Shown one piece after another: positions 12,411-22,523 of a stretch of 60,367 nt of DNA; position 1 is the stretch's first letter, and each line of letters begins with the position of its first letter. The stretch is taken from the NCBI RefSeq assembly GCF_000429945.1, contig NZ_AUCV01000036.1, forward strand, positions 1-60,367. The letters are read 5' to 3'. The DNA comes from Desulfogranum japonicum DSM 18378 (GTDB taxonomy: Bacteria > Desulfobacterota > Desulfobulbia > Desulfobulbales > Desulfobulbaceae). The notes beneath the pieces were generated by a model, which was given only the letters and a program-made list of their open reading frames with translations, was not told the DNA's origin and made no database searches. The translations under genes and the position numbers were made by a program.

Positions 12411-12456
12411 AGCATATTGGTCACACCTAAGCCAGCCTGATCGCGCAAACATCAGC
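12411..12456. repeat. Fragment of an A-type GTAACTG repeat
   Basis: GCATATTGGTCACACCTAAGCC followed by GATCGCGCAAACATCAG matches the right half of the copy at 25668. It overlaps the stop codon of the zinc-ribbon gene at 12452. Confidence 0.4.
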
Positions 12457-12715
12457 AATCCTCGCATTGTTTCGAGATTACGGTGTGAACAAAGCCCATG
12501 AGTACCCTGTTAAATTCCGTGGCATGGAGGAAAACGGCTGCTGCAACACACTCCTGCGCACGCTGCAGGTCCCCGGCCAACAGATGCTGCATCGTCTTTT
12601 GAGTATATTCCTCGGCCTGTGCTTCAACAATGAGCAGAAAGGACAAATCGGCTCCACAGCGGGGGCATATAGGCTTGTCCTTGATACGCGCTCTACAGTG
12701 GGGACAACGTTCCAT
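12452..12715 (-). CDS. Small zinc-ribbon protein, last gene of the Hsp70 operon
   Basis: An 87-residue protein with two CxxC pairs at the N terminus (C4, C7, C17, C20) forming a zinc ribbon, then a helical stretch (AEEYTQKTMQHLLAGDLQRAQECVAAAVFLH) that looks like a short TPR-like hairpin, and a Cys-rich end (CEDC). It starts four bases after the Hsp70 stop, so it is surely co-transcribed. Function unknown; a client or scaffold role within the chaperone operon is a guess. Its 3' end runs into a repeat fragment, so the last residues may not be ancestral. Confidence 0.75.
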   Translation of the reverse strand: MERCPHCRARIKDKPICPRCGADLSFLLIVEAQAEEYTQKTMQHLLAGDLQRAQECVAAAVFLHATEFNRVLMGFVHTVISKQCEDC

Positions 12716-12719
12716 ACTT

Positions 12720-14486
12720 CTAGGACTCCAGGAAAAAAATAATTTCCGTAAGCTCTTCCAGGGCCTCTTCCACCCGGGCAGTATCGTTTTCCTTACTGGC
12801 TGTGGTCAATTGTTCCACCAGGTCAACCAGATCTTCACGGTCGTCCTCAGACACCGTGTCCATGAGGTTGCGCGCCTTCTCAATCAAGGAAAGGACCTCC
12901 GCTGATATTCCAGGTTCAGACCCGGTACCATTGTCCTCGCCAACATCTTCCTCCGGCTCCTCTTCGATATCAGCTGAATCTGCACCAAAAAGCCTGTTAA
13001 TCCGGTTTCTGGCTGCTGCAAGACTTTCCTCGGAATCACGGGACAAAACATTATCAATGGTAATCGATTTAGCCATACCGGTTGCCTTTTCCATTGCCTG
13101 GACCTGGAGAATTCCATCGGTATTCAGAGAAAAGGTGGCAATAATCTCACTGCCTGCCGGGCGTTGTGACAGCCCCTGTATATGGAAGCTGCCGACTTCC
13201 AGATTATCCAGGGCATGACTTGCTTCACCCTGGTACACCTTTACTTCCACATCTTTCTGGTTATCTGTAACGGTGTAGAAGACTTCGCTGCGGGTTATCG
13301 GAACCGGGGAATTTTTGGTAATCAGGGGAACAAACACATCCGTGCAATACTCGCCGTCAATATCACCTATGGCACTGGTGCCAAAGGTGTATGGCGTCAC
13401 ATCGACCAGAATGGACTGCACCTGCTCACCACTGAGCATGGCAGCCTGCAGGGCTGCTCCGGAGGCAACACAGAGATCCGGATCAACCTCACGGCGCGGA
13501 GGCTGGCTGAAAACCTCCTCCAGTACTTTCTGGATCCGGGGAATATTTGTAGATCCGCCAACCAACAGTACCTCATCAATATCTGAAGCGGTGAGCCCCG
13601 CATCCTTGAGCACCACATGCACGCTATCCAGGGTCTCGTCAATCAACGGCGTGATCATCTCTTCAAAGGCAGTTCGCTCAAGTTCCAGGTTGAGATTGTA
13701 AGGTCCGCCGTCATGCTCCAGCAAATACTCTTCTTCAATCTGGGCAAATGGATGAACGGAAAGCACCTTTTTCGCTTCTTCCGACGCCCGTTTGATCCTC
13801 GCCTGTGCCTGTCTGGACACATCCTGGATACCATCCTCCTGCAGCTGCTCAAGTATCCATTCTTCCACCAGGGTATCAAAATCATCTCCACCCAGTTGAT
13901 TATTGCCATGACTGGCAACCACTTCGATAACCCCATCCTGAAGTTGCACCACAGAGACATCAAAGGTTCCGCCACCAAGATCATACACCAACACCCTTTT
14001 GCTGCCGACATGATTGGACTCATACACCAGGGTGGCGGCGGTGGGCTCATTGATCATCTTCACAACTTCAAGACCGGCTATTTCACCGGCCTCCCTGGTT
14101 GCCCGGCGCTGCTGATCTGAAAAAAATGCGGGAACAGTGATCACCGCACGTTCTATGCTGTGCCCCAGACATTCTTCTGCCGCCTGTTTCAGATGCCTGA
14201 GAATCATTGCCGAGATCTCCTGGGGCATATAGCGGCTGTCTCCCATCTCCACAGGATCGCTGCTGCCCATGAGCCGCTTGATGGATTTAATGGTGCGTTC
14301 AGGGTACAGTACATACTGATTCCTGGCAGCACCGCCGACCAGCAGGTTCTGCTGGTCATCGAGCCCGACATAGGATGGAAACAATTTTCCGTCCGGCCCT
14401 TCAATGACCGTGACCTTCCCGTCTTCGTAGAAAGCAACTTCTGAATTTGTGGTTCCCAGATCAATACCGAGTATTGCTGTTGTCAT
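12720..14486 (-). CDS. Hsp70 (DnaK) paralogue
   Basis: A 588-residue Hsp70. The ATPase domain is complete: GIDLGTTNS at 7-15, VPAFFSDQQRRAT at 118-130, DLGGGTFDVSVV at 169-180, and the adenosine motif VLLVGGSTNIPRIQ at 307-319. The linker is ILVDVTPYTFG in place of the usual VLLLDVTPLSLG. A substrate-binding domain follows, then an acidic spacer (DIEEEPEEDVGEDNG) and a short helical lid; the typical C-terminal tail of housekeeping DnaK is missing. It overlaps the GrpE-like gene by four bases. The operon partners (J-like, GrpE-like, TPR-like) make a dedicated chaperone set, separate from the general dnaK, which is presumably elsewhere. Confidence 0.93.
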   Translation of the reverse strand: MTTAILGIDLGTTNSEVAFYEDGKVTVIEGPDGKLFPSYVGLDDQQNLLVGGAARNQYVLYPERTIKSIKRLMGSSDPVEMGDSRYMPQEISAMILRHLKQAAEECLGHSIERAVITVPAFFSDQQRRATREAGEIAGLEVVKMINEPTAATLVYESNHVGSKRVLVYDLGGGTFDVSVVQLQDGVIEVVASHGNNQLGGDDFDTLVEEWILEQLQEDGIQDVSRQAQARIKRASEEAKKVLSVHPFAQIEEEYLLEHDGGPYNLNLELERTAFEEMITPLIDETLDSVHVVLKDAGLTASDIDEVLLVGGSTNIPRIQKVLEEVFSQPPRREVDPDLCVASGAALQAAMLSGEQVQSILVDVTPYTFGTSAIGDIDGEYCTDVFVPLITKNSPVPITRSEVFYTVTDNQKDVEVKVYQGEASHALDNLEVGSFHIQGLSQRPAGSEIIATFSLNTDGILQVQAMEKATGMAKSITIDNVLSRDSEESLAAARNRINRLFGADSADIEEEPEEDVGEDNGTGSEPGISAEVLSLIEKARNLMDTVSEDDREDLVDLVEQLTTASKENDTARVEEALEELTEIIFFLES

Positions 14487-15139
14487 GCTGATGTTCCTTT
14501 TTTATTAACAATCACTTCTGCTACTCGAAGTATTCGATTCCCAATCAAAAACCCTGTTCGCTGCTCTTCGAGCACTATTCCATCCTCTTCCTTTTTCTCT
14601 GAGAGCGAGCCCACAGCCTTCATCCGATATGGATCAAAGGGCTGGTGCACCACATCCATGGCGGAAACATTCTCCTGCTCCAACAGTTGTTCGATGCGCT
14701 TGAGCAGCATGGACTGTCCCTCACGATGCCCCTGCTCCCATTTGCGGTAGCGACGTCCGACGCCCAGCAGTTTCTCAAGCCAGGTCTCCACCGGCGGAGC
14801 CTGCTGTAATCCTGATCGAACCCGATCGTACAGATCTATCATCCCCTGCACCTGTGCAGAATTTTCAGGAGAAATATCCTCCGGTACCGAAGCATCGCTT
14901 TTCTCTAACGATGCGATCAGTTCCTGCTGGCCATGGTCCAGTGCGGTAAACGCCTGGCGGAAATCATCCAGCGCACCTTTTAACTGACGCGACTCGAGGC
15001 GAACTTCATTTTTCAGTCCGGACAGCTCACGAAAAAGGCTCATCAGATCAACGCCTTCATCAGAAGAACCCGGCATATCCACCATATCCAGGTAGGTACT
15101 GAATTGTTCCTGTAATGCTGTTTTTTGGAAATTATCCAT
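14483..15139 (-). CDS. GrpE-like nucleotide-exchange factor
   Basis: A 218-residue protein whose C-terminal part carries the GrpE head: MDVVHQPFDPYRMKAVGS, then GIVLEEQRTGFLIGNRILRVAEVIVNK, matching the GrpE pattern of a Gly-Tyr/Phe turn and an RxLRxAxV strand. The N-terminal part is helical (LSGLKNEVRLESRQLKGALDDF), as expected for the GrpE dimer stalk. It differs strongly from housekeeping GrpE and would serve the Hsp70 encoded next, with which it overlaps by four bases. ATG at 15139 was preferred to a TTG at 15148; neither has a clear ribosome-binding site, so coupling from upstream is likely. Confidence 0.82.
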   Translation of the reverse strand: MDNFQKTALQEQFSTYLDMVDMPGSSDEGVDLMSLFRELSGLKNEVRLESRQLKGALDDFRQAFTALDHGQQELIASLEKSDASVPEDISPENSAQVQGMIDLYDRVRSGLQQAPPVETWLEKLLGVGRRYRKWEQGHREGQSMLLKRIEQLLEQENVSAMDVVHQPFDPYRMKAVGSLSEKKEEDGIVLEEQRTGFLIGNRILRVAEVIVNKKGTSA

Positions 15140-15154
15140 ATTCGTCAATGGCTA

Positions 15155-15478
15155 TTAAAGTGTAAATTTACGACAAAAAGTACCTACCCCGCTCTGCAAC
15201 GCAGCAGCGAATTCTTCAGGTGAAGAGCTGACTGGTGCGGCCCGTTTGTCTACCAGCAGTTCAAACACGTCTGCAACTGTGGGTAACTGCCGATGAAACA
15301 AGGCATAGCTCAACCGTTTTTCTTCAGTACCGATCAATTCATAGGCGTCGAATATTTTCTGAAACATTTCAGGATGCTGTTCCGGGGGATATCGACGAAC
15401 CATGCCCAGATACGCCTGCCTCACCTGCTCATCGTTACTCTGCTCAGAAATATCAAGCAGTTCATAAGGAGTCTTCAT
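15155..15478 (-). CDS. J-domain-like protein without HPD
   Basis: A 107-residue protein with a J-type fold: helix I (TPYELLDI), helix II (NDEQVRQAYLGMVRRY), and helix III (EMFQKIFDAYELIGTEEKRLSYAL). Where J proteins have HPD between helices II and III, this one has P31-P32-E33 (RRYPPEQHPE). HPD is what triggers Hsp70 ATP hydrolysis, so this protein either docks without triggering or uses another contact. The C-terminal tail is unassigned. It overlaps the TPR-like gene by four bases and is followed by the GrpE-like gene after 15 bases. Confidence 0.8.
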   Translation of the reverse strand: MKTPYELLDISEQSNDEQVRQAYLGMVRRYPPEQHPEMFQKIFDAYELIGTEEKRLSYALFHRQLPTVADVFELLVDKRAAPVSSSPEEFAAALQSGVGTFCRKFTL

Positions 15479-17859
15479 ATTTCATCCCCAAAAAGATTGA
15501 GTTGGCGTCCGGTCAGGGGGGGAAGACCGGAGGTGCTCTCCTGCTTTTGCCCAGATTTGGGTTTGGCGTTCTGCCTGGGTTTCTTCTCTGGCACCGGTTT
15601 CCGGGGTTTGAACACCTCTTCCAGAAAATCTTCCATATCAAACCCGGCAAGGTTCTCCCTTTCAATGCCTATATCCATATTGTAATAATCAATACTGCGC
15701 TCTTGCAGTACATCGATAATATGATCTATGAACTCATGTTGACCAGTCTCAACCAATATATCAAACAAGTCTTCAAGCTGTAAGTTTCCCTCCAGCCCTG
15801 GAGGCCGCTTACTTTTGATAAAATCCCCGACCAGACGCCATACCTTGAATTCCAATCGCCCAGGAAATCTTTTTTCAAGGCGACGCGCACATTTGCCCAA
15901 TGCAGTATCCAGCCCCAGGCTTTCCAGTGTACGGCACAGGGAAAGCCCTTCGTCAGCATTCCATTCCAGGTCGATTATTCTGGAAAAATAACGCCCCAAC
16001 TGACCGCAAATTTCATGGAGAGAGCTTTGCTGATTTTCAGGGAAAGAAGATAACCAGGAAATAATACGCAGACATTCTCTCTTTTTCGGGGGATTCAGGT
16101 CTGCTGCTACCTTTTTCAGTTCACGATCAAAACGGTTCTGCACGGAGGATGGCAGTTGATACAATCTGGCTTCAAGGGATGTCAGCAACGCACCAAGCAG
16201 CATACTGCCGTTTTCTTCTTTTCCAAGACGTATATCCTCCAGTCCCTGATCATCTTTTTGCAGCAGGCGGACCATGCCGAGCCCTATTCGATTACGCCCC
16301 CGAAAACGTAGTGATTTCACCCGGGTTCCCGCAGCATGCAACTCTTTTTCAGCCAATTGCCATTTTGTCTGTTTTACCAGTTTGCGGGCATGCTCCAGAT
16401 GGGATTCCACCACAAAATCCAATGCCTTGATATTAATGGGATCAATTGCAAGAACCTGTTGAGCAATCCTGGATGCCTTTTTAAAGGCTTTTCGTTCTGC
16501 AGCAGCTTTCATGGAGGCAAGCAGAATATCTACATTGTCCGGCAGATTGTGGACAGCTTCATTGAGATGATCGTAATAGGCTTTAACAGAGTTACGCTGT
16601 TTTGCTGAACGGGCCACTGCCAGCCAGGTTTCAGCATGGGAAGGATCGTATTCCAGCGACAGTTTGAGTAAAGAATATTTTCTTTGCGGTTCAAAATGAT
16701 CTACTTCTGGAGGGATAGTAGCTGCCATATGCCGATAAATCATCGCCTTTTCCTTGGCGGGAAAACCACCTGCTTTTTCCCTGATTGCAAGATATTCCTC
16801 CCAAAAATCCTGGGCATAAAAACCTGCCCCATCCTGCTCTACCGTCAATGCCAGCAGACGATATTTTTCTGCCAAAGGGTACTTGCAGGCTTCCAGTTTT
16901 CGGGCACCCGATTCTCCGCAATATATAAGAAGGTTTTTTTCGAGTAGCGTATACTTTTCACGGCTGAACAAGTGTTTATTCTTCTTAACAAACCTGTAAA
17001 GCTGCTCCGGATCATCATCAGAATCGAGCAAGCTTGCCAGAGCTTGGCAGGTTTTGAGATCTACATTCCGCTGAAGAAAAAACTCCTGGCGCGCGTCTCT
17101 GGGTAATGGGCGCACCGAGGCTATGATTTCCCGTGAAGACATCTCCAGGCCCAAGTAGCTTGTTGCAAAACCGAAATAGGGGGAGTCCCGGGCAATTTTC
17201 CGAAGCAACGACTGCCCCTTCTCTGCATCGACAGCAAGCTGGGATACCCCTGCCAACAGTAGCCTGAGATCTTTAAAAGGTGAACGAAAAGAAATTTTAC
17301 CCAATATTTGCTGCAGAGCACTATGCTTCTCTGCTGTAAACAAACAGACAGCTTCCTGTGCCAGGGGGTAGTCTCTGGCTACCGCGCAATCAGCATCTAT
17401 CTGTTCCAGTGAAAGCTCATTGGTTAGCAGCAACGCTCCCTGTAACACGTGCATTCGCTGTATCTGTTCCACAGACAAACGATCCTGGCAATCTGAGAAC
17501 AATGCGACAGCCTGGGCATACTCTCCGCTTCGGACAAGTAAATTCAGGCGTATGATATCGCCCGATTTTTCTGGAAAAAAACGAACCATATTTTCCAGAA
17601 TGACAAAGGCCTCTTTAAGCATCTCCTTTTCACTGAGTTCATCGATCCTCCCGATATATGACTGTTCCAGCAAAAGGAAAAGTTCTGCGGAGTCCTCCAG
17701 ATCATCGTTTTTGATGACCTGCTTGCAACAGTTTATGGCCTCCCGAAACTTAGACTGCTCAAAAAACTGTTTTCCACGATTCAACAGCTCCGGCGTGGAT
17801 AGCCCTTGCAGTGAATCACTACGTTTTGAACGTACGTTTTTCTTTCTCTTTTTCGCCAT
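15475..17859 (-). CDS. Large TPR/helical-repeat protein, first gene of the Hsp70 operon
   Basis: A 794-residue protein made almost wholly of helical-repeat units of TPR kind (e.g. LLNRGKQFFEQSKFREAINCCKQ, PSHAETWLAVARSAKQRNSV, KASRIAQQVLAIDPINIKAL). The N terminus is strongly basic (AKKRKKNVRSKRS) and the C-terminal tail is Pro/Lys-rich (RKPVPEKKPRQNAKPKSG). There is no signal peptide, so it is cytosolic. ATG at 17859 was chosen over 17895 because of this basic start; no Shine-Dalgarno is visible for either. It overlaps the J-like gene by four bases. A scaffold or adaptor that brings clients to the Hsp70 is plausible but not shown. I do not recognise a named family. Confidence 0.85.
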   Translation of the reverse strand: MAKKRKKNVRSKRSDSLQGLSTPELLNRGKQFFEQSKFREAINCCKQVIKNDDLEDSAELFLLLEQSYIGRIDELSEKEMLKEAFVILENMVRFFPEKSGDIIRLNLLVRSGEYAQAVALFSDCQDRLSVEQIQRMHVLQGALLLTNELSLEQIDADCAVARDYPLAQEAVCLFTAEKHSALQQILGKISFRSPFKDLRLLLAGVSQLAVDAEKGQSLLRKIARDSPYFGFATSYLGLEMSSREIIASVRPLPRDARQEFFLQRNVDLKTCQALASLLDSDDDPEQLYRFVKKNKHLFSREKYTLLEKNLLIYCGESGARKLEACKYPLAEKYRLLALTVEQDGAGFYAQDFWEEYLAIREKAGGFPAKEKAMIYRHMAATIPPEVDHFEPQRKYSLLKLSLEYDPSHAETWLAVARSAKQRNSVKAYYDHLNEAVHNLPDNVDILLASMKAAAERKAFKKASRIAQQVLAIDPINIKALDFVVESHLEHARKLVKQTKWQLAEKELHAAGTRVKSLRFRGRNRIGLGMVRLLQKDDQGLEDIRLGKEENGSMLLGALLTSLEARLYQLPSSVQNRFDRELKKVAADLNPPKKRECLRIISWLSSFPENQQSSLHEICGQLGRYFSRIIDLEWNADEGLSLCRTLESLGLDTALGKCARRLEKRFPGRLEFKVWRLVGDFIKSKRPPGLEGNLQLEDLFDILVETGQHEFIDHIIDVLQERSIDYYNMDIGIERENLAGFDMEDFLEEVFKPRKPVPEKKPRQNAKPKSGQKQESTSGLPPLTGRQLNLFGDEI

Positions 17860-18271: not shown

Positions 18272-19471
18272 CTATTCGGAACGCAATGCCTGAACAGGAT
18301 CAAAGCGGGCGGCCTGCATGGCTGGAAACAGGCCGGAGAGGATGCCAATCCCCATGGAAAGTAGCTCTGCGAGCACAACAAAATTCCAGGGAGTGTGGAC
18401 GGGCATGAGCGGAACGTATATTTTTATCAGCAGTACCAGCACAAGGGCTACCAGCAACCCGGCACCGCCGCCGATAACGGCAAGAAGTACGCCTTCTGTA
18501 AGGAACAGCAGCAGTATCTGCCGACGCCCGGCACCAAGAGCCCGCAACAGGCCAATTTCTGCAACCCGTTCCCGAACGGCAATGGTCATAACTGTAAAGA
18601 TGCCGACACTACCGACCAGCAGGGAAATCCCGCCCAGAGCGCCCACTGCCACTGTCAGCATACCCAATACCGAGCCAAGGACATCCAGCATCTGTTGCTG
18701 GGTGGTAATGGTAAAGTCTTCCTGACCATGGCGGTTTACCAGGATTCTTTTCACAGCAGCGACGATCTCCTCTACCCTTGCTCCTTCCCGGTAAAGAATA
18801 TCTATCTCCATCAAGCCATCGTTGTTGAACAGATCCAGTCCGCGGGAAGCAGGAATATAGACCGTATCGTCCATGTCATACCCTAGAATCTGACCCTTTG
18901 GCTCCATAATCCCGATCACCCTGCCTGAAAAATCGCCAACCTGAATGCGCTCGCCCAGAGGATTTCGATGGGGAAACAGTTCCTGCCTGGTTTTATGGCC
19001 CAGTACCACATAGGGCCTTGCGGCCCTGGGATCATCATCAGGAAGAAATCTTCCACTGCGCACGTGCATCTGAAAAGCAGTGTCCATTTCTGATCCGACA
19101 CCGTACACTGTTAATCGCCGTGTTCTGCCATTGGCCTTTAATTCAGCATTTCCCTGCAACATAGGAACCACTGCACGTATTCCTGGAATACTTCGCAGGG
19201 CCTCGCCATCTTCTATAGTGAGGAGACGTTCTGAGCCCAACACCCCCAAAGGGGTCCCCATGGTCATCACTTTGCCGGGATTGATAGCTATCAGGTTGGT
19301 GCCGAACTGGGTAAATTCAGAGAGGACAAAACGATGCAGGCCTTCCCCCAGAGAAGTAAGAAGAATAACAACGGAAATGCCAATGGCAATGCCAAGCCCG
19401 GTGAGAAATGAATGTAACTTCTTATGACCGAGCGATCCGGTGATAAAACGCAGGTATTCAACAAATTCCAT
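18272..19471 (-). CDS. MacB-like ABC exporter permease (FtsX type), second copy
   Basis: A 399-residue inner-membrane protein: one helix near the N terminus (HSFLTGLGIAIGISVVILL), a large periplasmic domain of MacB type (TNLIAINPGK, YVVLGHKTRQELF), and three C-terminal helices in the FtsX domain (GSVGIFTVMTIAVRERVAEIGLLRALGAGRRQIL). The last phrase is the coupling helix region that contacts the ATPase. It is the fourth gene of a minus-strand operon; its start is nine bases after the first permease's stop. It is about 40% like the neighbouring permease by eye, so the pair probably forms a heterodimer. Confidence 0.9.
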   Translation of the reverse strand: MEFVEYLRFITGSLGHKKLHSFLTGLGIAIGISVVILLTSLGEGLHRFVLSEFTQFGTNLIAINPGKVMTMGTPLGVLGSERLLTIEDGEALRSIPGIRAVVPMLQGNAELKANGRTRRLTVYGVGSEMDTAFQMHVRSGRFLPDDDPRAARPYVVLGHKTRQELFPHRNPLGERIQVGDFSGRVIGIMEPKGQILGYDMDDTVYIPASRGLDLFNNDGLMEIDILYREGARVEEIVAAVKRILVNRHGQEDFTITTQQQMLDVLGSVLGMLTVAVGALGGISLLVGSVGIFTVMTIAVRERVAEIGLLRALGAGRRQILLLFLTEGVLLAVIGGGAGLLVALVLVLLIKIYVPLMPVHTPWNFVVLAELLSMGIGILSGLFPAMQAARFDPVQALRSE

Positions 19472-19480
19472 CTCTCCCCT

Positions 19481-20689
19481 CTACCTCCTGGAAAGTGCCA
19501 GGATAGGATCAAGACCGGCTGCACGGCGTGCAGGCATCAGGGAGAAGATCAGACCGGTCAGCAGTGCTGTTCCCAATGCAGCACCAATTGCCCAGAACGG
19601 AGGTGTGGCATCCAGGGCAGGATAAAGCCAGGATGCGATACGGGCTCCCGCCAAGCCGAGGGCCAGGCCGAGACACCCGCCAAAGGCTGAAAGGAGAAGC
19701 GCCTCGCTTACTATCAGCAGCATGATCTGCCCCCTGGCTGCTCCCAAAGCCTTGCATAGACCTATTTCTGCGGTGCGCTGGGATACAGACATAAGCATGA
19801 CATTCATAATCAGTATACCGGCAACAGCCAGGGAAATTGAGGCAATACCGGCAACGGTCACGGTCATGACCTGGAAAATCGTGTCAAAGGTCGCAAGCAC
19901 CGAATCCTGGGTAATAATGGTCACATCTTTTTCGCCATAGTGACGTTGCCTGATGGTATCCCCAATAAAAGTTTTCACCTTATCGATAGCCTCGGAATGC
20001 TGGACCTCCACCAGGATACGGAACAGACTTTCTGTGTTCAGCAGCATCTGGGCAAAGGCAACCGGTACCACGACCAATTCGTCGGTATCCATTCCCAGGG
20101 ACCTGCCCTGCCCTTCAAGCACACCGATAACTCTGCAGCGGTATCCGGCCAAACGAATCTGTTCACCAAGGGGTGATTGATCAGCAAACAATTCGCGGCT
20201 GATTTTGTTGCCAATCACGCATACCGGCCTGGCCAGAGTGGCATCTCCCTCGGGCAGAAATGTTCCCCGGGACATTTGCAGATGATGTATCTTCAGAAAC
20301 GATGCAGTTGACCCCAAAACAGGAACCTGCCTTTCCCTGCGCCCCCTGGCAGCGCTCATCTCACCGATATTGAGAGGAGCCACCCTCGTTACCCTGCTGT
20401 TACGGGTCAATGCCTTGGCGTCATCAAGGGTTAAATCCCTCGGCGTTCTTCCCGCAAGGGTTGAGAGAGTACCGGATGCGGTTTCCGCACGCCCGGGAAT
20501 AACAATGATCAGGTTTGTTCCAAGAGATGAAAATTCATTGACTATATAACCTCGGGCACCATTGCCGATACCGGTCAGCAGGACGACAGCGGCAACCCCT
20601 ATGGACATGGCAAGCAGCATCAACAATGTCCTCACACTGCCGCTGCGAAGGCTGTGCAGTCCATATGCCATAGAATTAAACAAGGTCAC
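19481..20689 (-). CDS. MacB-like ABC exporter permease (FtsX type), first copy
   Basis: A 402-residue permease with the same plan as its downstream partner: N-terminal helix (RTLLMLLAMSIGVAAVVLLTG), periplasmic domain (GTNLIIVIPGRAE, VIGNKISRELFADQSPLG), and three C-terminal helices with SQRTAEIGLCKALGAARGQIMLL. A GTG start at 20689 overlaps the ATPase stop (GTGA), a typical translational coupling; an ATG six codons later is the alternative. Unlike E. coli MacB, permease and ATPase are separate proteins. Confidence 0.9.
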   Translation of the reverse strand: MTLFNSMAYGLHSLRSGSVRTLLMLLAMSIGVAAVVLLTGIGNGARGYIVNEFSSLGTNLIIVIPGRAETASGTLSTLAGRTPRDLTLDDAKALTRNSRVTRVAPLNIGEMSAARGRRERQVPVLGSTASFLKIHHLQMSRGTFLPEGDATLARPVCVIGNKISRELFADQSPLGEQIRLAGYRCRVIGVLEGQGRSLGMDTDELVVVPVAFAQMLLNTESLFRILVEVQHSEAIDKVKTFIGDTIRQRHYGEKDVTIITQDSVLATFDTIFQVMTVTVAGIASISLAVAGILIMNVMLMSVSQRTAEIGLCKALGAARGQIMLLIVSEALLLSAFGGCLGLALGLAGARIASWLYPALDATPPFWAIGAALGTALLTGLIFSLMPARRAAGLDPILALSRR

Positions 20690-21375
20690 GGAACAACCTT
20701 ATCCAGGGAGATACGTCCATCCACCACCTCAATAGTCCGTCGGGCACGGGTTCCAATGTTTTGGTCATGGGTGACAACCACCAGAGTCAACCCGTCCCTG
20801 TTCAACTCCTCCATGAGCTCCACAATTTCGTTGCCGGATTCCCTGTCAAGGTTCCCTGTGGGTTCATCGGCAAGGAGTACTGCCGGACGGGTGACAACCG
20901 CGCGGGCAATGGCAACCCGCTGTCGTTGCCCGCCGGAAAGTTCCTCTGGACGATGATGGCTGCGGGTGGCCAGACCAAAACGCTCCAGTAGAGACGAGGA
21001 GCGTTTCTGTCTTTCCGACTTCCCCACACCTGCCAGAAGCAGGGGCAACTCAATATTCTGCCTGGCTGTTAGCCTTGGAATAAGATGAAAAAACTGAAAA
21101 ATGAACCCTATCTTTCTGTTACGGATAGAGGCGAGTTCTTTATCCTGGAGCCTGGTCACGTCTTTACCTTCCAGGAGATAGGTGCCGCTGTCGGGAGTAT
21201 CCAGCAGTCCCATGATATTGAGCAGGGTGGATTTCCCAGATCCTGAAGGCCCCATGATCGAAAGGTACTCTCCCTGCCGAACAGTGAGGGAAACATGATC
21301 CATCGCCCGCACTTCCTGGTCACCCACGACAAAAGTCCGACAGATATCCTGCAACTGTATCATGGCATGCTGCAT
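20686..21375 (-). CDS. ABC exporter ATP-binding protein (MacB/LolD type)
   Basis: A 229-residue ATPase with Walker A GPSGSGKST, the Q-loop (FIFQFFHLIPRLTARQN), signature LSGGQRQRVAIARA, Walker B VLLADEPTGNLD and H-loop VVTHD. The LTA.QN phrase and D-loop are typical of the MacB/LolD/FtsE group, which powers periplasmic pulling rather than classic transport. The ATG at 21375 overlaps the adaptor stop (TAATG). It energises the two permeases encoded after it. Confidence 0.94.
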   Translation of the reverse strand: MQHAMIQLQDICRTFVVGDQEVRAMDHVSLTVRQGEYLSIMGPSGSGKSTLLNIMGLLDTPDSGTYLLEGKDVTRLQDKELASIRNRKIGFIFQFFHLIPRLTARQNIELPLLLAGVGKSERQKRSSSLLERFGLATRSHHRPEELSGGQRQRVAIARAVVTRPAVLLADEPTGNLDRESGNEIVELMEELNRDGLTLVVVTHDQNIGTRARRTIEVVDGRISLDKVVP

Positions 21376-22523
21376 TAATCGCTTTCCTCGATTTCTGCGC
21401 GTACGCCATCGGCAAGCCCTTCTCTATCCACGGAAGTCACAACCAGCTCTCCGGCTGACACCCCTGAACGAATTTCCGTTTCTTTCCAGTTTGCCAGGCC
21501 TGTGGCCACCTCCTGCTTACGGAGAGTACCGCTTTCCCTGTCAAGAATGTACACATATTGACTCTGAATAACGGCCTCGGTGGGAATACGGATAACCTGT
21601 TCTCTGGAATCAACCACTATTTCGACGTCAGCGCTGTACCCTACCAGGAGATTTTTCTCCTTTGCCTGGCCGGCAAAGTCAACCTCCACATCCACTGTTC
21701 GAGCCTGTTTGGCAAGTTCCAGGACATACGGAGCGATACTGCGTACAGTTCCGGGAAAAACCGTATCCGGATATGCATCAATATGGATTCTTGTTGCCAG
21801 GCCAGGTTGAATCTGGGCAGCATCAATTTCATCAATGGGAGCTGCAACGTACAGTTTTTCCGTGTTGACAAGATCTATGGCAGGCAACGTTGCTATACCT
21901 GGAGGGGAAGGGGTGATATACTCTCCCACCTCGCCATTGACTTCAGCCACCATACCGTCAAAGGGAGCTTTGAGTATGGTACGTTCCAGCAAAGCCTCTG
22001 CAGAGGCCACACGGGCCATACTGACCAGTATCTGATCTTTGGCTGCAGAACAGGCTGCAGCCTGGGCTTCGGCATTTGAAAGTGCCTGGTCATAGGCTGA
22101 TTCGGAGGTAGTCTTTTTGGCACGCAATTCTGTTAAACGCTGAGCCTGCCGTTTACTGTACGCAGCCATAAGGCAGCGCTCATGGGAGGTTGATTTGGCC
22201 ACGTTTACCTGGGCACGGGCAAGCTTGAGATCTGCCTCAATGTCCTTATTCCAGATAGTCAACAGCACCTGGCCGGCTTTGACGGAATCCGCCTTGCGCA
22301 CATGTAGGGATTCTATCTGGCCACCAATGGCCGGAGCCAGTTTGGCACGGTGCCTGGCCTTGATGGTACCGGCACGGGTATTGGAAACAGTTGCCTCAAT
22401 GGCCCCTGCCTGGGCTGCCTGGACGAGCACCTGAACAGGATCAGGTTCTCTGGTAAGAAAACGATATCCTATCACAACGAGCAGGAGCCCCAGAAGTATA
22501 AAGATGATGATGCGCTTGTTCAC
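21375..22523 (-). CDS. MacA-like periplasmic adaptor (HlyD/RND-MFP family)
   Basis: A 382-residue protein with one N-terminal membrane anchor (IIIFILLGLLLVVIGYRFL), the split lipoyl domain (APAIGGQIESLHVRKADSVKAGQVLL ... ILKAPFDGMVAEVNGEVGEYI), a helical hairpin between the halves that reaches the outer-membrane channel, and beta-barrel plus membrane-proximal domains. With the ATPase and two permeases it makes a MacAB-TolC-like tripartite exporter. No TolC gene is in this operon; one of the TolC-family genes further along (41906 or 54576) or elsewhere would be needed. Substrate unknown. Confidence 0.9.
   Translation of the reverse strand: MNKRIIIFILLGLLLVVIGYRFLTREPDPVQVLVQAAQAGAIEATVSNTRAGTIKARHRAKLAPAIGGQIESLHVRKADSVKAGQVLLTIWNKDIEADLKLARAQVNVAKSTSHERCLMAAYSKRQAQRLTELRAKKTTSESAYDQALSNAEAQAAACSAAKDQILVSMARVASAEALLERTILKAPFDGMVAEVNGEVGEYITPSPPGIATLPAIDLVNTEKLYVAAPIDEIDAAQIQPGLATRIHIDAYPDTVFPGTVRSIAPYVLELAKQARTVDVEVDFAGQAKEKNLLVGYSADVEIVVDSREQVIRIPTEAVIQSQYVYILDRESGTLRKQEVATGLANWKETEIRSGVSAGELVVTSVDREGLADGVRAEIEESD

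Follow-up and report, generated by a model that had tools for sequence, protein, structure and literature searches.

A family of J-domain proteins with PPE or a similar tripeptide at the HPD position, encoded with an Hsp70 and a GrpE-like protein in Desulfogranum japonicum and relatives

Gene content of the locus

The window analysed here is the whole stretch of 60,367 nucleotides from Desulfogranum japonicum DSM 18378. It contains an operon of five genes (Table 1), in which the stop codon of the TPR gene overlaps the start codon of the J gene (ATGA) and the stop codon of the GrpE-like gene overlaps the start of the Hsp70 gene. A sequence-only reading of this DNA had described a J-like protein with PPE in place of HPD, encoded beside its own Hsp70 and GrpE. 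Its coordinates are right, and the gene, for which it gave no strand, lies on the minus strand with both the Hsp70 and the GrpE-like gene adjacent on that strand. For the zinc-ribbon protein every Pfam zinc-ribbon match is below the cut-off.

Table 1. Genes and motifs of the operon in the window
Feature	Position	Strand	Description
TPR-superhelix protein	15475..17859	minus	794 aa counted from the ATG at 17859; the ORF list gives 806 aa, starting at a TTG
QLNLF motif at the TPR protein C-terminus	15490..15504	minus	matches the beta-clamp-binding consensus
J-like protein	15155..15478	minus	107 aa; short-loop J domain (residues 1–60) and C-terminal helical extension of lower predicted confidence
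Codons for P31-P32-E33 at the HPD position (DnaJ 33–35)	15380..15388	minus	CCC CCG GAA
GrpE-like nucleotide exchange factor	14483..15148	minus	221 aa; PF01025, E 1.3e-15
Hsp70, tentatively HscC-like	12720..14486	minus	588 aa
K143 codon of the Hsp70	14058..14060	minus	equivalent of DnaK R167, the partner of the HPD aspartate
Zinc-ribbon protein	12452..12715	minus	87 aa (CPHC...CPRC); last gene of the operon

Directly upstream of the operon are MacB/FtsX-type ABC export genes (18272–22523, minus strand), one recognised by Pfam and a second permease, an ATPase and an adaptor judged by eye. Scans for promoters and terminators between 12000 and 18400 gave 6 and 9 sites, with 7.3 and 6.6 expected, and neither the tRNA nor the Rfam scan of the window gave a match. 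Concerning a plasmid origin, tblastn with the J protein as query found no match at E 0.001 in 72,556 plasmid records. The only match to anti-phage defence systems in PADLOC was a weak CARF match to the GrpE-like protein (E 0.0078). Among the open-licence papers listed in our literature searches, none was seen to describe this operon or a family of PPE-type J proteins.

The J domain and the position of PPE

The Pfam DnaJ profile (PF00226) matches the window's J protein over residues 4–58 (E 6.8e-9; 36.1 bits, cut-off 27.8) and matches all 26 aligned members of the family, this one included, at E 0.001 or better. Apart from the DnaJ domain, Pfam and NCBIfam give DnaJ-type models far below their cut-offs and a few weak unrelated matches. 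The AlphaFold2 model, which was built with 26 sequences, has block-mean pLDDT values of 91–98 for residues 1–60 and lower values beyond, with helices at residues 4–7, 16–29, 36–49 and 52–61. The best listed Foldseek matches to this model are J domains or J-domain proteins, none of them at E 0.001. VIA-align gives Z up to 9.3, and with the DnaK-bound J domain 5nro_B it aligns 57 residues (Z 7.7, rmsd 1.6). A structural prediction lacking the J fold, which the sequence-only reading had named as grounds for abandoning its claim, was thus not obtained, the fold being predicted confidently by AlphaFold2 and matched to J domains by Foldseek and VIA-align.

PPE stands directly after helix II of the model, which is the HPD site in DnaJ; the numbering is offset by two, so that H33, P34 and D35 of DnaJ correspond to P31, P32 and E33, and PPE is confirmed at residues 31–33. 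By profile and predicted fold, the frame 15478–15155 encodes a genuine J domain with PPE where HPD belongs. Based on the published classes of J-domain proteins (JDPs), it has the Pfam J profile and the predicted J fold of the family. The HPD of the canonical classes A, B and C is replaced by PPE, and histidine is found at its first position in 0 of the 32 family members. A recognisable J domain with HPD non-conservatively replaced (here H to P or S, fixed) corresponds to the type IV, or pseudo-JDP, as defined in PMC13254874. The protein fits this definition, yet it is family-wide and operon-bound.

The window's protein also has H35-P36-E37 immediately past PPE. HPD, HPE or HP at this place is shared with a few relatives and P36 is invariant, which would be expected if a shifted motif acted as the true HPD. 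We disfavour this reading and consider it very improbable: few of the aligned sequences (5 of 26) have histidine at position 35, an acid is not regularly present at position 37, DjlC aligns without gaps so that its HPE falls on PPE, and helix III of the AlphaFold2 model begins at residue 36.

Conservation of the motif and distribution of the operon

Relatives were sought with the J protein or its profile in the 257 genomes of the class and in 395 genomes sampled from the phylum, some of them incomplete. Clear J relatives are present in 24 of the 257 class genomes, that of the window included (25 matches, E 1.3e-20 or lower); after these there is a gap, and J proteins of canonical length start at 8.7e-12. 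Seven more genomes with J relatives (E 1e-13 or better) are found in the phylum sample. All 32 copies read, the window's among them, have [P/S]-P-[E/D] and never H: PPE in 20, PPD in five, SPD in four and SPE in three.

The J profile was built from PPE-type members and could bias this count, and the TPR protein was therefore used as an independent bait. Its profile matches 22 of the 257 class genomes at E 1e-40; 21 of these hold a PPE-type J gene, and in the 22nd the contig ends before any J gene could appear. An orthologue with HPD in the same operon was found neither among the 32 copies nor by way of the TPR bait in the 257 class genomes. As a control, J domains outside the operon were read in seven operon-holding genomes, and HPD is present in 34 of 34 (all five of the window's genome and 29 from the other six). 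The other six genomes have 51 J matches, 30 of which were fetched. Among the 21 remaining, five are operon J genes, four were read later and have HPD as well, and the rest are weak J matches that lie outside the HPD control count.

Homologues with HPD, showing that the window's copy is simply decayed, had been the other ground on which the sequence-only reading would fall. The alignment it called for shows [P/S]-P-[E/D] fixed and HPD in 0 of 32. A decayed canonical J gene, for which nothing but the motif itself would speak, is ruled out by a motif of this one type in 32 of 32 copies, across several families and beyond the class, and in the operon each time; this explanation is contradicted, and we give it next to no credence.

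Concerning the operon as a whole, the genes detected in each of the 32 loci share a strand and follow the order TPR, J, GrpE, Hsp70, zinc ribbon, and all five genes are detected in 22 loci. Contig ends account for eight of the ten incomplete loci. In the other two, a single-sequence search did not detect the TPR gene (L101) or the zinc-ribbon gene (L102) though some sequence was left. The spread is patchy, and two genomes of the same genus at 100% completeness (G002 and G006) lack the operon. In two loci, L075 (genome G054) and L080 (genome G010), the operon Hsp70 lies in two frames, by sequencing error or decay, and the other four genes are one long frame each.

Relationship of the operon Hsp70

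The genome of the window also has a separate canonical DnaK. In a tree of 46 rows, from which the truncated operon Hsp70s of L075 and L080 and a distant Hsp70 (L168) were omitted, the operon Hsp70s form one group (92/88), and a 99/97 branch parts them, together with E. coli HscC and a sister pair described below, from DnaK and HscA. A reduced tree places the operon Hsp70s apart from DnaK again (100/99). Both trees contain a single HscC on a long branch, and the program flags long-branch joins as possibly false; the AU test (p 0.0014) excluded HscC and HscA jointly and is no clean test of the placement of HscC. In BLAST the window's Hsp70 reaches 345 bits with the DnaK of E. coli (35% identity) and equally with that of its own genome (41%), against 283 bits with HscC (36%). 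On these trees the operon Hsp70 is not a DnaK. Its grouping with E. coli HscC is tentative because there is one long-branch HscC and BLAST favours DnaK, and the link therefore rests on the trees and on the deletion described next.

A deletion of the region corresponding to DnaK 76–101 in the nucleotide-binding domain (NBD) is common to the 25 operon Hsp70s whose sequence extends over it. In loop L1,2 an insertion of 4–8 residues is seen in the eight rows displayed, of 26. Both are given as HscC features in PMC8215388, which adds that many DnaKs from outside Proteobacteria have the deletion too. The 290–295 region, a GrpE signature, has six of six positions filled in 21 of the 26 operon Hsp70s, the window's included, and two of six in five from outside the class. 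Its retention fits the co-encoded GrpE-like protein. At the C-terminus of the window's Hsp70 (12720–13000, minus strand) an acidic linker seems to take the place of part of lid helix B, and the NCBIfam model of the GAK-system XXXCH domain matches weakly, below its cut-off (E 0.0079).

The J–Hsp70 interface

The DnaJ–DnaK contacts reported in PMC8215388 are H33 with the L391 backbone, P34 with P419, D35 with R167 and Q378, and K48 with D477; charges of the J domain also contact E206, D211 and E217 of DnaK. All 26 operon Hsp70s retain P419, Q378, E217, L391, D393 and T199, and position 167 is always basic (K in 17 of 25, R in eight). The linker is changed: V389 is A, S or T in all 26 and L392 is V in 24, and VLLLD becomes mostly [A/S/T]-[V/I]-L-V-D. 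At D477, D is found in one of 25 and E in nine, and position 206 is variable. In the comparison set all 14 DnaKs have R167 and V389, and K is found at 167 in one (L167) of the five further Hsp70s compared from these genomes. On the J side, the residue corresponding to DnaJ K26 is a nearly invariant Leu (Leu24), as in DjlB and DjlC, and at the equivalent of K48 there is Gln in 16 of 26 sequences, a basic residue in nine and Glu in one. The equivalent of P34 is invariant, and the acid at DnaJ position 35 (E or D, 32 of 32) has its basic counterpart at Hsp70 position 167 in 25 of 25.

Mapped onto the DnaJ–DnaK contacts, these alignments indicate that the acid–base and proline contacts survive, that the histidine is gone and that the charge contacts of K26 and K48 are lost or weakened. 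The salt-bridge half of the trigger is thus apparently kept and the histidine–linker half lost.

One of the two possibilities raised in the sequence-only reading was an altered trigger matched by changes in this Hsp70. The changes themselves exist, at 167, V389 and D477. That they match the trigger is unproven, because R167K shows no association with E or D in the J motif (E-K 13, E-R 5, D-K 4 and D-R 3; Fisher p 0.64), R167 is retained alongside the same kinds of motif in the six operons found outside the class, and neither the acid nor the base is lost. R167K as compensation for D to E is unsupported by these counts, and no specific compensating Hsp70 change was found among the operon Hsp70s, the linker change being a candidate only.

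Comparison with known systems

Like E. coli HscC with DjlB and DjlC, the operon pairs a non-DnaK Hsp70 with a dedicated J protein, although in PMC8215388 the service of DjlB to HscC is an assumption. The window's J protein shares with DjlB and DjlC the replacement of D35 by E (HPE in those proteins), a J loop six residues shorter and Leu for DnaJ K26. The Hsp70 shares the NBD deletion and the L1,2 insertion with HscC, and repeat-protein genes lie nearby in both cases (Sel1 YbeQ/YbeT in E. coli). The differences are that H33 is also lost in the operon J protein, whereas the HPE of DjlB and DjlC seems, according to PMC13254874, to be the sole tolerated replacement of HPD; that DjlB and DjlC are tail-anchored (PMC8215388), in contrast to the short operon protein; that the operon includes a GrpE-like gene as well as TPR and zinc-ribbon genes; and that HscC is without the 290–295 region. 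The family J profile aligns to the loop of DjlC without a gap and requires a six-residue insertion for DnaJ. The profile scores do not discriminate (DjlB 44.3 bits, DnaJ 39.8 and DjlC 35.2, with 44.1 for L003, which is a J protein with HPD encoded in the same genome as the window), and kinship with DjlC appears to be marked by loop length and Leu24 only. Taken together, the locus looks like a DjlC/HscC-type system in which the histidine has been lost too.

The DnaK–DnaJ–GrpE system resembles the operon in its three core components and in most Hsp70 docking residues, and DnaK gives the top BLAST score of the window's Hsp70. It differs in that the operon Hsp70s are a separate clade with a changed linker, K at 167 in most members and D477 rare, in the presence of PPE for HPD, and in that the window's genome has its own canonical DnaK and HPD J proteins besides the operon. 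The type IV or pseudo-JDPs Pam16 and DnaJB13 likewise have a clear J domain with an altered HPD; in the operon family, unlike in these, the change is fixed family-wide, P34 and the acid are kept, and an Hsp70 and a GrpE-like protein are co-encoded.

Pam16 is a known HPD-less J protein that stands beside a functional one (PMC13254874), and the operon protein might similarly pair with a canonical J domain and restrain it. We regard such an inhibitory role as improbable: at E 1e-5 the family profile finds a single J gene in each of the 32 loci, so that no second one was seen near the operon, and Pam16 is also without the proline (DKE or DKS) that is invariant as P32 in the operon family.

Proposed mode of action

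We propose that the J protein is a specialised working co-chaperone of a DjlC-like subtype that serves solely the HscC-like Hsp70 of its own operon, a proposal whose chances of being right or wrong we consider about equal. Its docking mode, the exclusive pairing, an attenuated stimulation and the roles of the GrpE-like and TPR proteins are what we infer as follows. The J domain would dock at the NBD/linker face of the operon Hsp70, where P32 would pack against the conserved P419. E33 (or D) would pair with K/R167 and release it from the linker aspartate D393, and the interdomain gate would open; according to PMC7289447, the aspartate of HPD interferes with the bonding of R167 to aspartates in the linker and the SBD. 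With the histidine–linker contact absent, the push to ATP hydrolysis would be weaker, or another contact would be made in the altered linker. The co-encoded GrpE-like protein would then reset the cycle, and the TPR protein would provide client or location.

In the simulations of PMC13012618, DnaJ with H33A docks but stops short of the stimulating state, and with D35A the docking of the loop is lost. Given these simulations, a protein that has lost the histidine and kept the acid would be predicted at least to dock and to open the gate. The same result is in line with a J protein that only docks, bringing the operon Hsp70 to the TPR protein or a client without stimulating it, hydrolysis being driven by client binding or by an HPD J protein elsewhere. 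Five HPD J proteins are encoded in the same genome, and a 2026 review (PMC13254874) names Hsp70 recruitment without stimulation as an open possibility. This docking-only alternative, the other possibility of the sequence-only reading, has in our estimate perhaps a third share of the probability, and it leaves two observations unaccounted for: the acid at 35 and its basic partner, maybe needless for docking alone, are kept in every readable operon, and the J gene stands with its own Hsp70 and GrpE-like genes.

Several observations lead us to lean towards an attenuated co-chaperone rather than docking only: among the copies read, acid and base are invariably retained; the J gene is accompanied by genes for an Hsp70 and an exchange factor; replacement of HPD by AAA does not fully abolish activation in some systems (PMC13012618); and DjlC alone, among DjlC, DnaJ, CbpA and HscB, stimulated HscC (PMC8215388). 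A designed J analogue without HPD is also reported to stimulate Hsc70 (PMC13254874). Attenuated stimulation is opposed by the literature on H-to-Q changes, which PMC8215388 describes as abrogating stimulation in all systems tested; PMC13254874 agrees.

HPD is called the most conserved sequence of J proteins in PMC13254874, where the distinction between accidental and selected deviations is described as enigmatic. The present family is a natural one in which the histidine is lost and the rest of the trigger kept, and for which the probable Hsp70 and exchange factor can be taken from the operon. In this family the acid–R167 pair and the histidine–linker contact, which make up the trigger, come apart, so that the textbook HPD rule becomes testable on a natural exception, and the family may reveal what HscC-type Hsp70s act on.

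The TPR protein and its C-terminal motif

AlphaFold2 predicts for the TPR protein a helical-repeat superhelix to about residue 725 and then a tail with pLDDT of about 40; this tail, predicted to be disordered, ends in GRQLNLFGDEI. The fold search returned many TPR superhelices with low TM-score and is silent on function. QLNLF is the clamp-binding motif of UmuC, and the consensus QL[S/D]LF is usually found at the protein end (PMC3716654). The pattern Q[L/M/Q][N/D/S/T/G]LF is present within the last 15 residues of 17 of 26 TPR frames and of one of 901 other ORFs of at least 100 aa from the same loci, and that ORF, directly next to a J gene at the edge of a contig, is itself probably the end of a TPR gene. 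The final F is invariant in the 25-row TPR alignment. Y-family polymerase genes of the same genomes have QLxLF or QLxLPF in the last 52 residues of nine of the 12 read.

A speculative and rather unlikely possibility is that the operon encodes a clamp-targeted Hsp70 machine. The QLNLF of the TPR protein would bind DnaN, the sliding clamp of replication, and the histidine-less J protein would couple the HscC-like Hsp70 and GrpE to the remodelling of clamp-bound complexes, for example in repair, with the proline–acid trigger alone. HscC confers resistance to cadmium and UV by a mechanism described as unknown in PMC8215388, which makes the clamp idea worth testing and no more. If true, it would suggest why E. 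coli HscC contributes to UV resistance, and the proline–acid trigger would break the rule of the indispensable histidine. The nine TPR frames without the full motif (L075, L076, L078, L081, L093, L094, L100, L103 and L105) argue against a clamp role in every member. Alternatively, the TPR tail may be a client peptide for the Hsp70.

A sister arrangement

Three genomes, G056 (locus L172), G104 (L170) and G111 (L171), have a sister arrangement, with a YPPE J protein in all three. The Hsp70s of L170 and L172, the two loci with an Hsp70 on the contig, are again HscC-like, fall beside the operon clade and have R at position 167; a protein of about 700 aa is encoded with them. Unlike in the operon, the order in G056 is GrpE, Hsp70, a protein of about 700 aa, and J, and GrpE is not detected in G104; the protein of about 700 aa is without the clamp-type tail.
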